Of a DNA stretch of 64,000 bases, positions 8,466-24,017 are shown piece by piece. How positions within the stretch are numbered: the stretch's first letter is position 1; each line of letters opens with the position of its first letter. Source of the stretch: Georgenia subflava (GTDB lineage: Bacteria; Actinomycetota; Actinomycetes; Actinomycetales; Actinomycetaceae). The notes beneath the pieces are model-generated. The model had not been told where the DNA came from and did not search any database. It saw only the letters and a program-made list of their open reading frames with translations. The translations under genes and the position numbers were made by a program. The stretch covers positions 62,001-126,000 of the forward strand of contig NZ_VUKD01000007.1 in assembly GCF_009193155.1 (NCBI RefSeq). Reading direction: 5' to 3'.

Positions 8466-9299
8466 TCAGCCGCGCGCGTCGAGGGCGGCCTGATAGAGCT
8501 CGCGCTTGCTCAGGCCGGTCTCGGCCGCGACCGTCGCCGCTGCGTCCTTCAGCCGCGCGCCGGCGTCGGCGAGGGCGAGCACACGGCCCACATGGTCGAC
8601 GACCGAGGCCACGACCGGCTCGGCACCGGCGACGACGATCGTGATCTCGCCCCGCACACCGCCGCTCGCCCAGTCGACGAGGGCGCCGAGGGTGTCGCGA
8701 CGCACTTCCTCGTAGGTCTTGGTCAGCTCGCGACAGACGGCGGCCTGCCGGTCGGCGCCGAAGGTCTCGGCCATGTCCGCCAGCGTGGCCGCGAGCCGGT
8801 GCGGCGACTCGAAGAAGATCATTGTGCGTCGCTCGTCCGCCAGCGCTCTGAGGGCCCGCGCCCGGTCGCCGCCCTTGCGCGGGACGAAGCCCTCGAAGCA
8901 GAACCGGTCGGTCGCCAGGCCGGAGAGCGCAAGCGCGGTGAGCACGGCGGAGGGTCCGGGGAGCACTGAGACGCGCACGCCGGCGTCCGCCGCGACGCGC
9001 ACGAGCCGGTAGCCGGGGTCGGAGACGGCGGGCATGCCTGCGTCGGAGACGACGAGCACCCGTGCACCGTCCTGGGCGGCGCGGACGAGGTCCGGCGCGC
9101 GCTGGTGCTCGTTGTGCTCGTGGAAGCTGATGACCCGGGCGGTGACCCGCACACCGAGCCGCGATGCCAGGGCGCGCAGGCGGCGAGTGTCCTCGGCGGC
9201 GACCAGGTCGGCGTCGGTCAGGGCCCGGCGTAGCCGGGGCGGCGCGTCGGCGGCGTCACCGATGGGCGTGGCGGCCAGCAGGATGACGCCCGGCGTCAT
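8466..9299 (-). CDS. rsmI: 16S rRNA (cytidine-1402-2'-O)-methyltransferase
   Basis: SAM-dependent 2'-O-methylation of C1402 in 16S rRNA. Motifs of the tetrapyrrole-methylase-like fold are visible: [16 protein letters not shown] at the N-terminus, [44 protein letters not shown], and FFESPHRL. From ATG 9299 the protein has 277 residues, the usual family length. The frame stays open to ATG 9572, which would add 91 residues of low-complexity sequence built on an 11-fold hexanucleotide repeat. That start lies only 11 bases from the divergent PMT gene and leaves no promoter space, so I prefer the short form, with moderate certainty. Confidence 0.88.
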
Positions 9300-9370
9300 C
9301 GAGGGAGCGGCGTCCTCGGCACGCGGATCGGCGCCGGATTTGGCGTCCACATCGGAGTCGGTGAGCCCGT

Positions 9371-9441
<71 letters not shown>

Positions 9442-9583
9442 AAGGGATCGAAGTCGGCATGCGCTTCGGCGGCGTCCTCGGCACGCGGATCAGCGGCGAC
9501 GTCTCGGGCGGAATCCTCCTGGTCAGGGGGCTGCGCGGGGGGACTCACCCGCTCAGTCTCCCCCATCGCCATACACTCGCCCG

Positions 9584-11752
9584 ATGACCACGCCAGACCG
9601 GACGCCGCAGCTCGACGGCGCCGGCCCGACCGACCGGGAATGGTCTGGCGACGGTTCCGCCCGCACAGTCCTGCGCCGGTCCCTCCGCGACCGGCTCGAC
9701 TCGTCGGCCGCGACGACGGACGACGACGCCGCGCACGCCGAACCGGACGCCGGACCGAGCGACGCCGCGCACGCCGGACCGAACGACGACGTTCACGCCC
9801 GACCGGGCGACGTCGCGCACGACCAACTGAGCGACGTCGCGCGAGCCGACGTCACCCACGGCGCACCCGGCGCCGGCCTCCGGGCGCCGCGCACCGCCGT
9901 CGAGATCGAGGACGACCTGCGCACCCGCCTCGGCCTCCGCGGCCTGGGCGAGCGGCTCGACCCCACGGCACGGCTGTGGGGCTGGCTCGGCCCGCTCGTC
10001 GTCACCGCGCTGGCCGCCGTCCTGCGGCTGGTCAACCTCAACCACCCGTCCCGCCTGATCTTCGACGAGACCTACTACGTCAAGCAGGCGTACTCGATGC
10101 TCACCCTGGGCTACGAGGGCGACTGGCCGGCGGAGGACGCCAACGACCGCTTCATCCAGGGCGACTTCTCCGACCTTTCCACCGAGGCGGACTACGTGGT
10201 CCACCCGTCCGTCGGGAAGTGGATGATCGCCCTCGGCCTGCGCCTGTTCGGCGCGGACAACGGAGCGGGCTGGCGGTTCTCCGCGGCCGTCGTCGGCACG
10301 CTCTCGGTGCTGATCGTCGCGCGGCTGGCCACCCGCATGTTCGGCTCGGCGCTGCTGGGCACGGTGGCGGGGCTGCTGCTCGCGATCGACGGCCTGCACC
10401 TGACCGAGTCCCGCACCTCGCTGCTCGACATCTTCCTCATGTTCTGGGTGCTGGTCGGCTTCTGGTTCGTGCTGCAGGACCGCACCGCGACGCGCGCGGT
10501 GCTCGCCAGGCGCGCCGCGGCGGAGCTCGCCGGAAGCCAGGCCGGCGGACCCGCCCGGCTCCGCGACGCCTGGGGCCCGCGGGTCGGACCGCGGTGGTGG
10601 CTGGTCGGTGCCGGCGTCGCGCTGGGGCTGGCGACCGGGGTGAAGTGGTCGGGCCTGTACGCGGTCGCCGTCTTCGGGATCATGGTGTTCGTCTGGGACA
10701 CGTGCGCCCGGCGGGCCGTCGGGGCGCGGCTGTGGTTCGGCGGCGGCGTGCTGCGCGGCGGGGTGCCGGCCTTCCTCGCGTTGGTCCCCACGGCGGCGCT
10801 GACCTACGTGGCGACCTGGTTCTCCTGGTTCACCCACCCGACGGCGTACCGGCGCCAGTGGGCCGCGGACCTGCGCGAGAGCGGCGAGGCGCTCCCGCGC
10901 TCCTGGCTCCCGGACACGCTGAACTCCTGGTGGGAGTACCACCTGGTGATGTGGGACTTCCACAACGGCCTCGACTCCGAGCACTCCTACGAGGCGCACC
11001 CGCTCGGCTGGATCGTCCAGTGGCGGCCGACCTCGTTCTTCTGGCCGGACCCCGCGCCGCCGCCCGAGGCGTGCGGGGCGGACCGGTGCGTGCAGGCGAT
11101 CACCTCGCTGGGCAACCCGGCGCTCTGGTGGTTCGCCGCGGCGGCGCTGGTGGCGCTGGTGTGGGTCGCGCTGCGGCAGCGGGACTGGCGGGCCTGGGCG
11201 ATCCTCGCCGGGTACGCGGCGATGTACCTGCCCTGGTTCGGGTACGCACACCGCACGATCTTCACGTTCTACGCCGTCGCCTTCGTGCCCTACGTCGTGC
11301 TGTGCCTGACGTTCGTGCTCGGCTGGGCGACCGGGCTGCTGAGACCGGCGCGGCCCGAGACGCCGTCCGGGCCGGACCGGAGCGCGTGGCCGACGGCGCC
11401 CGGCGAGCCCTCCGAGCGGCAGTCCGACGGCGACGTCGAAAGCGCCCGGGAGAACGACGGCGACCGCGAACGCGCCATGGACGGCGATCGCGAGAAGAAC
11501 GACGACAGCCGCGATGGGTCCGGCGACGGCCGAGATGGCGACGGCAGACCACGGCCGGCACCGCCGTCGCGCCTCGCGTTGTTCCTCTCCGACGACGGCA
11601 CCGCCCGTCCGGGAGCCGCCGGCTGGGCGCTGCTCGGAGTCGTGGTCGGTCTGGCGGCCGCCCTCGCGGTCTTCTACTGGCCGGTGTGGACGGGACAGAC
11701 CGTCTCCTACGACTTCTGGCGCCTGCACATGTGGCTGCCCAGCTGGATCTAG
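9584..11752 (+). CDS. Polyprenol-phosphate-mannose protein mannosyltransferase (PMT, GT39)
   Basis: An integral membrane GT-C enzyme that moves mannose from polyprenyl-phosphate-mannose to Ser/Thr of secreted proteins. The first periplasmic loop carries the catalytic acidic pair in [16 protein letters not shown], followed by [12 protein letters not shown]. About ten or more membrane helices are seen, with the conserved [11 protein letters not shown] and [17 protein letters not shown] segments. Two features differ from homologues: an N-terminal run of about 70 residues rich in Asp, Ala and His ([20 protein letters not shown]), and a charged insert of about 75 residues near residue 600 ([19 protein letters not shown]) before the last membrane segments. 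ATG 9584 is divergent from rsmI. Confidence 0.92.
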
Positions 11753-11773
11753 CCTCCGCCGTACGGTGGTGCC

Positions 11774-12727
11774 GTGACCGAGGACTTCCTGATCGCCCGC
11801 AACCCGGAGGAGGGCACCACGCTGCCCTACCTGCTGCGGATCCCGCTCGGGCCGGACGGTATCGTGCTCAAGGCCAAGGAGACCTGGCCGCGCACCAACA
11901 AGGTGTACTGCCACCGCGCGGTCGGCTGGCCGCGGGAGCCCGAGATCGTCGAGGCCGTGCCGGTGCGCTCGTGCGTGCGTCGCGGTGCGGCGATCGACCT
12001 CGTGCTCGACAGGGGCCGCGAGAACCGCTCCCAGTTCGTCCTGACGCGCATCCGCGGCGGGCGGGAGGCGATCTTCTGGCAGACCGCGCGCACGGCGAAG
12101 CAGGCCCGACCGGCGGTCGCCGTGCCGACCGCCCGGGCCGCGGGGATCAAGGACCTGCCGATCATCGTCGACAGCCACGAGCGCTACGCGTGGAAGTTCG
12201 CCGACCAGCAGCCGACCACCACCGTGCGCGGGCTCGCCGCCGGCGACTACGCGGTCGAGTGGGACGGACGCGTCGTCGCCTCGGTCGAGCGCAAGAGCCT
12301 GGCCGACCTCGTCGCTACGCTCACCGGCGGTCGGATGCGGTACCTGCTGGCCGACCTCGCCGAGCTGCCCCGCGCGGCGGTGGTGGTCGAGGACCGCTAC
12401 TCCAAGGTGTTCTCCCTCGACCGGGTGCGCCCCGCCGTGGTGGCCGACGGGCTCGCCGAGTGCGCTGCCCGCTTCCCCCAGGTCCCCATCATGTTCTGCG
12501 AGACCCGCCCGCTCGCCCAGGAGTGGACCTACCGGTTCCTCGCGGCGGCGCTGCGCGAGAGCGTCGAAGAGGCCGGCGGTGACGTCCGGGTCGCCGACCT
12601 ACGGCCCGCCACCGCCCCCACCGCCGGGGAGATCCGCCGCTGGGCGCGCGAGCACGGCTACACCCTCTCCGACCGCGGCCGGATCGCCGCCGAGGTGCTC
12701 GCCGCGTTCGAGCGCCGCAACGACTGA
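11774..12727 (+). CDS. ERCC4-family nuclease with C-terminal Lsr2 DNA-binding domain
   Basis: A 317-residue protein with three parts. Residues 1-125 have no recognised domain. An ERCC4 (XPF/Mus81-type) nuclease domain covers about 130-245, with LPIIVDSHERYAWKF, then GDYAVEWDG and SVERKSLADL, which fits the GD-Xn-ERK-X3-D active-site signature exactly. A C-terminal domain at about 280-313 (EIRRWAREHGYTLSDRGRI) matches the Lsr2 AT-hook-like motif that binds AT-rich minor grooves. It probably cuts branched or selected DNA, targeted by the Lsr2 part (inference). GTG start at 11774, 22 bases after the PMT gene on the same strand. Confidence 0.85.
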   Translation: MTEDFLIARNPEEGTTLPYLLRIPLGPDGIVLKAKETWPRTNKVYCHRAVGWPREPEIVEAVPVRSCVRRGAAIDLVLDRGRENRSQFVLTRIRGGREAIFWQTARTAKQARPAVAVPTARAAGIKDLPIIVDSHERYAWKFADQQPTTTVRGLAAGDYAVEWDGRVVASVERKSLADLVATLTGGRMRYLLADLAELPRAAVVVEDRYSKVFSLDRVRPAVVADGLAECAARFPQVPIMFCETRPLAQEWTYRFLAAALRESVEEAGGDVRVADLRPATAPTAGEIRRWAREHGYTLSDRGRIAAEVLAAFERRND

Positions 12728-12924
12728 GTCCGCCCGGGCCGCGGGCCCGGACCACCCGCGGTTCCCGGTACGGGGCACTGGTCGCCGCCGCGTCAGGGAA
12801 GCCGGGGCGCCGGCGTCGAGCAGCGACTGCCACATCCGCACGGCGGAGGCGGGCCGGGCGGCCTGGAAGGATGGCCCGGGTGGTGGGCGCGCTCGCCCGT
12901 CACCCGTGTCGGAGGGGAGAACCT

Positions 12925-13752
12925 GTGAGCCGCACCGTCCGTGGCGCCCACATCGTCATCACCGGAGCCAACCGCGGCATGGGCCGGCTCTTCGCCGAGC
13001 GTGCCGCTGCCGAGGGCGCGGCCGTCCTGGACCTGTGGGGACGCGACGCCGACGCGCTCGCGGCGGTGGCCGCCGAGCTGGCCCGACCCGGCGTGGAGTT
13101 GCGCACGACGACCGTCGACCTCGCCGCCCCCGACGCCCTGGACGACGCCGCGGCCACGCTGCTCGCCGAGGGCCGGGTGCCCGACGTGCTGGTCAACAAC
13201 GCCGGCGTCATCACGTCCAACGCATACTTCTGGCACCTCGCCCCCGACGACGCCACCCGCACGGTCCAGGTGAACACCCTGGCGCCCATGCGTCTCGTCA
13301 GCCGCCTGCTGCCGGCGATGATCGAGGACCGCGGCCGGCCGAAGCGGCTGCTCAACGTGGCCTCCGCCGCGGGCATCGTCCCGAACCCGCGCATGGCCGT
13401 CTACGCCGCGTCCAAGGCGGCGCTGCTCTCCTGGTCAGACACGCTTCGCCTCGAGCTCGCCCAGGCCGGGCACGAGCACGTCCGGGTCACGACGTTCAGC
13501 CCGTCCTACGTCGACACCGGCATGTTCGCCGGCACCCGGCCGGTCCTGCTCACCCCCGTGCTGGACCCCGGCCGCGCCGTCGGCCAGGCGTGGCGCGCGA
13601 TGCTCGCGGGGCGGGCCCACGTGATCACCCCGCCCACGGTGCACGTGGCGCGGGCCGGCCGCGGCCTGCTCCCGTCGCGGGCGTGGGACGCCGTCGCCCG
13701 CACCTTCGGGGTGCACCGGTCGATGGACTCCTTCACCGGTCGGGCGGACTGA
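12925..13752 (+). CDS. Short-chain dehydrogenase/reductase
   Basis: A 275-residue Rossmann-fold oxidoreductase. The NAD(P)-binding motif is TGANRGMG near residue 13 (T-G-x3-G-x-G), with LVNNAGV near 93. The catalytic Ser lies in NVASAAG, with the pair YAASKAA (Y-x3-K) at about residue 158. The long C-terminus after SYVDTGMFAGTRP is typical of classical SDRs acting on lipids or secondary alcohols. The substrate is unknown. GTG 12925 is chosen because GGAGGGGA lies at 12911-12918; an ATG at 12871 would add 18 unsupported residues. Confidence 0.88.
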   Translation: MSRTVRGAHIVITGANRGMGRLFAERAAAEGAAVLDLWGRDADALAAVAAELARPGVELRTTTVDLAAPDALDDAAATLLAEGRVPDVLVNNAGVITSNAYFWHLAPDDATRTVQVNTLAPMRLVSRLLPAMIEDRGRPKRLLNVASAAGIVPNPRMAVYAASKAALLSWSDTLRLELAQAGHEHVRVTTFSPSYVDTGMFAGTRPVLLTPVLDPGRAVGQAWRAMLAGRAHVITPPTVHVARAGRGLLPSRAWDAVARTFGVHRSMDSFTGRAD

Positions 13753-23905: not shown

Positions 23906-24017
23906 GGAGGAGGCGCCCCGACCGTGATCGAGGCCGATCGCCAGCACGCATGGCACGCGAACGGGGCCGACGGAGCATGCTCCGTCGGCCCCGTCGTCAG
24001 ACGTTCATCTCAGCGGG

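Follow-up and report, generated by a model that had tools for sequence, protein, structure and literature searches.

The gene at positions 11774–12727 of the window, by which we mean the whole 64-kb stretch of DNA that was analyzed, encodes a protein that its fold and motif place in the ERCC4 nuclease superfamily and that has a new architecture. An N-terminal domain, predicted to have the fold of the LigD 3'-phosphoesterase (PE), is followed by an ERCC4 nuclease domain with an intact active-site motif and by a short Lsr2-type tail, and the protein can be classed neither as an Lsr2 protein nor as a LigD phosphoesterase. The open reading frame fills this interval exactly on the + strand, starts with GTG and codes for 317 amino acids. 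In an alignment of 39 sequences (A1) the mean column identity of the whole protein is 55%, and the window's own genome contains one ERCC4 domain. We found no description of this family in the literature on ERCC4/XPF, Lsr2, LigD phosphoesterase and GIY-YIG among the matches listed, with subscription papers and preprints mostly outside the scope of the search. The features of the locus are collected in Table 1.

Table 1. Features of the nuclease locus, in window coordinates
Feature	Position	Strand	Basis
Complete gene: PE-fold domain, ERCC4 nuclease, Lsr2 tail	11774..12727	+	ORF and Pfam
N-terminal domain, residues 1–110, predicted LigD 3'-phosphoesterase (PE) fold	11774..12103	+	AlphaFold2 model, structure match, invariant residues
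ERCC4 (XPF/Mus81/Hef-type) nuclease domain, about residues 128–266	12155..12571	+	Pfam, profile and structure match
GDY of the active-site motif, residues 157–159	12242..12250	+	Invariant in alignment A1 (39 sequences)
ERK of the active-site motif, residues 172–174	12287..12295	+	Invariant in A1 (39 sequences)
D178 of the active-site motif	12305–12307	+	Nearly invariant in A1 (39 sequences)
Lsr2 DNA-binding domain, about residues 282–313	12617..12712	+	Pfam PF23359, solved Lsr2 domains
RGR motif, residues 301–303	12674..12682	+	Exact in 64 of 71 Lsr2-type tails
Putative -10 element TACGGT, 6 nt ahead of the GTG start	11762..11767	+	TANNNT recurrence upstream
Upstream neighbour pmt (protein O-mannosyltransferase); outside the system, insertion-site marker	9584..11752	+	
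Downstream neighbour sdr (short-chain dehydrogenase); adjoins pmt in seven nuclease-free relatives	12871..13752	+	

The ERCC4 nuclease domain

An earlier note on this gene had described a complete GD-Xn-ERK-X3-D active site. The motif is present as quoted there, as GDY (residues 157–159) followed by VERK (171–174) and SLAD, which ends in D178, and Pfam places ERCC4 (PF02732) at residues 132–255 with an E-value of 1.2e-12 and 48.4 bits, well over the cut-off of 24. In a profile comparison the ERCC4 part matched Hef (1j22) with an E-value of 1.7e-9. The top structural matches of the domain in Foldseek and VIA were Hef, XPF and Mus81, with VIA Z-scores of 15.8 to 2bgw (Aeropyrum XPF) and 15.3 to 1j24 (Pyrococcus Hef); at a Z-score of about 15 the nuclease domain of Pyrococcus Hef shares 24–25% identity with the window protein. 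Loss of the ERK triad in homologues, which the earlier note had named as a result that would speak against its reading, was not found: GDY..[VIL]ERK is kept in all 102 relatives with a complete core.

Archaeal Hef and XPF and eukaryotic XPF and Mus81 have the ERCC4 fold and the GDXnERKX3D motif in common with the window protein. They differ in the surrounding modules, since neither a helicase domain nor (HhH)2 was found in the window protein, and a PE-fold domain stands in front of the nuclease and an Lsr2 tail behind it. A Pfam search of the window protein returned no helix-hairpin-helix family at E ≤ 1. With no (HhH)2 and an Lsr2 module in its place (residues 284–316), we regard the protein as a variant architecture and not as a canonical XPF.

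The N-terminal domain

While the ERCC4 and Lsr2 domains named earlier were both recovered, a conserved N-terminal domain of about 110 residues had been overlooked. Its conservation is considerable, with a mean column identity of 68% for residues 1–117 in an alignment of 41 sequences (A2). Pfam gave nothing over cut-off in residues 1–131 of the window protein, and no Pfam family was matched by the 41 N-terminal domains apart from three single weak matches. AlphaFold2 modeled the domain alone with a pLDDT of 89.4 and a pTM of 0.81, and the full-length protein with a pLDDT of 89.8 and a pTM of 0.56. Both Foldseek and VIA-align ranked LigD 3'-phosphoesterase structures at the top for the N-terminal domain. 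For the model of the domain alone we obtained Z-scores of 10.8, 10.4, 8.7, 8.7, 8.3 and 7.7 to six PE entries, compared to 3.7 for the next chain, and the best of these matches extends over 103 residues with an rmsd of 2.8. The full-length model gave a Z-score of 10.9 to the PE structure 3p43; Foldseek's own best E-value for the domain is modest (5.1e-3). As the PE entries stand clear of the next row and two separate models agree, the N-terminal domain is predicted to have the PE beta-barrel fold.

A kinship with LigD PE at the level of sequence was considered and rejected. None of the 41 N-terminal domains matched LigD_N (PF13298) at E ≤ 10, in a search whose program filters drop most matches above 0.1. 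An hhalign comparison with LigD_N domains gave an unsupportive probability of 0.2–0.3, using 17 of the 30 fetched domains (13 were without the motif used for excision), and a search of the N-domain profile against solved structures returned one irrelevant antibody chain. From the unsupportive profile comparison it follows that the relation between the N-terminal domain and PE is one of fold.

For the LigD PE of P. aeruginosa, His42, His48 and Asp50 are named as manganese ligands and Arg52, His84 and Tyr88 as phosphate-binding residues (PMC8656161). In a joint alignment, whose register is inferred, these six residues fall in this order on N10, P18, L20, R22, W52 and P56 of the window protein, with FVxxKH..LHYDLR of LigD PE in register with F..ARN..LPYLLR. 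The metal ligands and His84, present in LigD PE, are thus replaced in the alignment of the window protein, which also shows no equivalent of the loop region that precedes the final strands of LigD PE. N10, L20 and W52 are invariant in A2 (41 sequences). Of the PE active-site residues, the window protein retains R22 alone, and R22 is not invariant among the relatives. At the register taken from the joint alignment, N10, P18 and L20 would have replaced the PE metal ligands, and our reading is that the domain may be a PE barrel without PE chemistry, now binding DNA or protein. Its net charge is +7 in the window protein and lies between +4 and +9 in six relatives for which we calculated it.

The Lsr2 tail and its history

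The C-terminus carries the tail EIRRWAREHGYTLSDRGRI, as quoted in the earlier note, and the Lsr2 DNA-binding domain claimed there was confirmed by two approaches: Pfam Lsr2_DNA-bd (PF23359) matches residues 282–313 (E-value 6.1e-13, 48.3 bits, cut-off 26.9), and the tail aligns with the solved Lsr2 DNA-binding domains 6qkp, 6qkq and 2kng. The module is probably DNA-binding in the window protein as well, and a tail that fails to bind DNA, the other result named in the earlier note as speaking against its reading, was not encountered in these comparisons. The RGR motif of Lsr2 has a minor-groove role, and we found it exactly in 64 of the 71 Lsr2-type tails. A C-terminal DNA-binding domain with RGR is what the protein has in common with the Lsr2 nucleoid protein of Actinomycetota, from which it differs in that it has one small tail on an enzyme and is without the Lsr2 N-terminal domain. 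For this dimerization/oligomerization domain there was no Pfam match at E ≤ 1, and residues 1–110 are occupied by the PE-fold domain instead. Two Lsr2 DNA-binding domains occur in the window's genome. One is that of the window protein; the other, which matches better, lies in a 118-aa frame at C3:558123 that we take to be an ordinary Lsr2. RefSeq-derived records already use the names 'ERCC4 domain-containing protein' or 'histone-like nucleoid-structuring protein Lsr2' for members of the family; the second name is misleading because no Lsr2 N-terminal domain was found and the tail is optional.

To follow the tail among the relatives we collected the loci on both strands and removed duplicates, which left 112 distinct rows. 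An Lsr2-type tail is present in 71 of them, window included; after leaving out 10 incomplete cores, 65 of 102 rows have the tail and 37 do not. The phylogenetic profile that had been proposed as a check on the earlier note thus shows a recurrent fusion, which can therefore be neither a chance event nor an assembly join. A quick tree without bootstrap was built from 101 rows (the 10 incomplete rows and one row with a masked run were dropped), and here 65 tailed and 4 untailed rows lie on one side of a branch with an SH-aLRT support of 92. On this tree the history of the tail takes four changes at the fewest, and at least three are required if one relies on the well-supported branches. This reads as one gain of the Lsr2 tail inside Actinomycetota and three losses. 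A more careful tree of 77 rows gave a matching tail clade at a support of 99/93 with two losses; it was derived from a smaller set of 87 rows (+ strand of the loci only), in which the nuclease motif is kept in 78 of 78 rows and RGR in 51 of 57. On the other side of the branch we observed untailed forms from Acidimicrobiia, Nitriliruptoraceae, Chloroflexota and unnamed Actinomycetota. With the root placed at the midpoint, we speak of a gain and not of a loss because the untailed form is spread more widely. In the phylum sample, 8 of 37 protein matches run through the tail and 29 do not. The PE-fold and ERCC4 domains are the older core, and the Lsr2 tail is a later, optional addition.

Two further observations concern other C-terminal combinations. 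The PADLOC profile PDLC03328 (type II methyltransferase) matches residues 260–313 near its own C-terminal end (E-value 3.4e-4), which suggests that Lsr2 DNA-binding domains may also be appended to restriction-modification enzymes; no PADLOC model covers most of the window protein, the methyltransferase profile matching the tail only. In addition, two relatives of 450 aa (L042:4529-5881 and L045:771-2123) have a GIY-YIG-like tail in place of Lsr2. About 190 further residues behind their PE-fold and ERCC4 domains have a GIY-YIG-like look, with Pfam matches under the cut-off (E-values of 0.083 and 0.26), and each protein looks like a fusion of two nucleases on one chain. The label Bifidobacterium breve of L042 is probably a mis-binning. 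SLX1-type GIY-YIG nucleases work together with XPF/Mus81, and the two relatives similarly pair a GIY-YIG-like domain with ERCC4, whereas the window protein is without GIY-YIG.

Distribution and mobility of the gene

Next, we determined how widely the protein occurs. It was found in 37 of 396 genomes of the phylum sample, 28 of 394 of the class sample, 6 of 151 of the family sample and 4 of 9 of the genus sample, and the taxa comprise some Actinomycetota and a few Chloroflexota. Plasmids carry copies too: 27 plasmid records from Mycobacterium, Rhodococcus, Streptomyces, Pseudonocardia and Mycolicibacterium contain the gene, and 22 of them match over at least 80% of the query. On the Rhodococcus plasmid pDK3 (L066:2674-7620) the homologue adjoins a Tn7-like gene set composed of a TnsA-like gene, a Mu-type transposase, an ATPase and TniQ.

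The flanking genes pmt and sdr allowed us to compare the insertion site. Among the 11 pmt-bearing genomes of the genus and family, G528 is the only one in which the nuclease gene separates pmt from sdr, as it does in the window. In seven of the 11 the two genes are adjacent with no nuclease gene between them, and in three no sdr match occurs in the short stretch examined. G402 and G502 have an empty pmt–sdr site and carry the nuclease gene elsewhere, in the case of G502 between a gene for an RNase T-fold exonuclease and a dynamin-like gene. In G489 a frame-split copy adjoins this exonuclease gene as well, and two further genes intervene ahead of the dynamin-like gene. This second site is empty in the window's genome, G528 and G514, where the exonuclease and dynamin genes adjoin; in G417 and G402 they are about 2 kb and about 6.5 kb apart, respectively, and both genomes are without the nuclease gene there. 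The copy of G502 groups with plasmid and other-family copies and not with the copy of the window (SH-aLRT 99, seven rows). In a single genus, then, each of two sites occurs with and without the gene, and the copies found there come from different branches, which suggests that the two sites were occupied independently. Within one family the gene occupies at least three chromosomal sites. The gene appears to be gained and lost as a single gene and to be dispensable for most relatives.

Of the 28 matches in the class sample, 6 are incomplete or frame-split (G591, G650, G654, G668, G672 and G868), and sequencing or assembly error is a possible cause for some of them. Among the loci, incomplete or frame-split copies were noted in L011, L102/L103 (G489), L163, L164, L165, L166 and L167.

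Elsewhere in the window, the rsmI ORF (8466–9572, - strand) is extended at its N-terminus by about 90 residues, which include a stretch weakly matching serine-aspartate repeat models, and its true start may lie further in. The G+C content is 0.71–0.75 in the first 24 kb compared to 0.61–0.72 at positions 24001–64000. No tRNA and no Rfam matches were found in the 64 kb.

Putative promoter, neighboring genes and possible links to repair

We analyzed 51 upstream regions, comprising the homologue loci, four plasmid loci and the window, with close relatives counted separately; four rows whose starts are uncertain and two that are short of upstream DNA were omitted. The pattern TANNNT occurs 6–8 nt ahead of the start in 25 of the 51 rows, compared to 0.3 on average at randomly chosen upstream positions, and is absent at this distance from the other 26. 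Its recurrence suggests that in many relatives the gene is transcribed leaderless and on its own, and the nuclease gene of the window would probably have its own leaderless promoter as well. A DNA-damage promoter was rejected, as neither type recurs: the 51 regions gave a single PafBC-like match and a single SOS-like match, the latter partial.

We then searched the neighbors in 35 loci, scanning 123 of 129 selected ORFs (the size of the other six led to their exclusion, three in L035, two in L052 and a long one in L039, and L041 gave none). No Pfam or PADLOC family recurs in more than two members. For PADLOC, 31 families were matched among the 123 neighbors, none of them in more than two members, and we rejected a defence island on this count, which covers the neighbors alone and is thus not an enrichment test. 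A conserved operon partner was likewise rejected, as clusters of neighboring ORFs were found only among close relatives or belong to general families. A phage origin was rejected too: phage records matched the ERCC4 part only, in one Halorubrum virus (2 records), and 9 pattern matches in viral contigs yielded 0 relatives.

Two loci place the gene next to LigD/LigC-type genes. In L010 a gene combining PE and Prim-Pol lies divergent at 27 bp from the nuclease gene (L010:4298-5974), and in L024 an ATP-dependent ligase gene lies divergent at 54 bp, followed by a Prim-Pol gene (L024:2935-5935). A divergent neighbor of LigD or LigC type was thus observed in 2 of the 35 loci with scanned neighbors. 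Across the phylum sample, LigD_N was found in 25 of the 37 nuclease-positive genomes compared to 197 of 396 overall (Fisher p 0.025, kinship ignored), and the window's own genome contains both LigD_N and Ku. The neighbors and the co-occurrence are hints that point towards end joining. LigD as a required partner was rejected: 12 of the 37 nuclease-positive genomes have no LigD_N match, from which we conclude that NHEJ is not required.

Discussion

We propose that the protein is a three-module structure-specific endonuclease with an accessory role in repair or recombination, a reading to which we give about an even chance. The PE-fold domain, its metal ligands lost, would provide the surface on which a junction or the end of a DNA duplex docks. 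Nicking of a flap, overhang or branch would be done by the ERCC4 domain, which probably acts as a dimer, and the Lsr2 tail would grip the nearby duplex via RGR, standing in for the (HhH)2 of archaeal and eukaryotic XPF. In the cell the protein would then have an accessory part in repairing or recombining DNA ends. Docking, nicking and gripping are all deduced from the domains, and the biological use from weaker hints. The earlier note had offered two purposes for the fusion, a nuclease directed to AT-rich, often foreign, DNA or to replication or repair structures. The joining of an ERCC4 nuclease with an intact motif to a probable DNA-binding module stands. Of the two purposes, the second fits better because a PE-like domain is now known, and the first is not borne out, since the tail is optional and later, no relatives were found in viral contigs and no defence system recurs among the scanned neighbors.

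A nuclease against invaders, steered by its Lsr2 tail to AT-rich and mostly foreign DNA and then degrading or nicking it, nevertheless deserves consideration. The sparse and patchy spread in the class and family samples and the copies on plasmids resemble what is seen for defence genes, some copies have possibly decayed, and the methyltransferase profile match suggests that restriction-modification enzymes use such a tail as well. However, the core is older without the tail, as also reflected in the many phylum-sample matches that do not run through it, no defence gene recurs among the neighbors, and no partner was found that would mark self DNA. Moreover, Lsr2 favors AT-rich DNA without being restricted to DNA of foreign origin. 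We therefore consider a defence role unlikely.

The mobility of the gene could also be that of a selfish, homing-like nuclease that cuts or nicks empty sites and is copied in by recombination. The several chromosomal sites in one family, the occurrence of two of them with and without the gene in a single genus, where the copies belong to different branches, and the gain, loss and possible decay of single copies would all fit a homing cycle. Yet ERCC4 nucleases recognize structure rather than sequence, the filled sites are intergenic with no common target noted, and ordinary transfer together with deletion accounts for the pattern equally, so that we regard homing as improbable. That the protein is a catalytically idle DNA-binding or silencing protein, as the Lsr2 product name given by RefSeq to several plasmid copies implies, is very improbable, because every complete row keeps the nuclease motif, the tail is dispensable and Pfam did not find the Lsr2 N-terminal domain.

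Returning to the structure-specific endonuclease, we tentatively suggest a more general scheme, which we hold to be possible rather than probable: these proteins may form a hitherto undescribed class of bacterial one-chain nucleases that process DNA ends or branches, in which a LigD-PE barrel stripped of its catalysis is the DNA-end reader of an XPF nuclease and the third module is exchangeable (none, Lsr2 or GIY-YIG). If this is true, bacteria would have in this family an equivalent, on one polypeptide, of the XPF/Mus81/SLX assemblies, and repair by Ku/LigD or LigC would have a mobile accessory in it. To our knowledge, XPF/Mus81-type nucleases have been studied almost wholly in archaea and eukaryotes, and the present family is a bacterial branch with its own domain logic. 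If the N-terminal domain is indeed a dead phosphoesterase that reads DNA ends, a part of the end-joining machinery would have been recruited to aim a structure-specific nuclease. This would raise the question which DNA structures the hosts of the family resolve with it.
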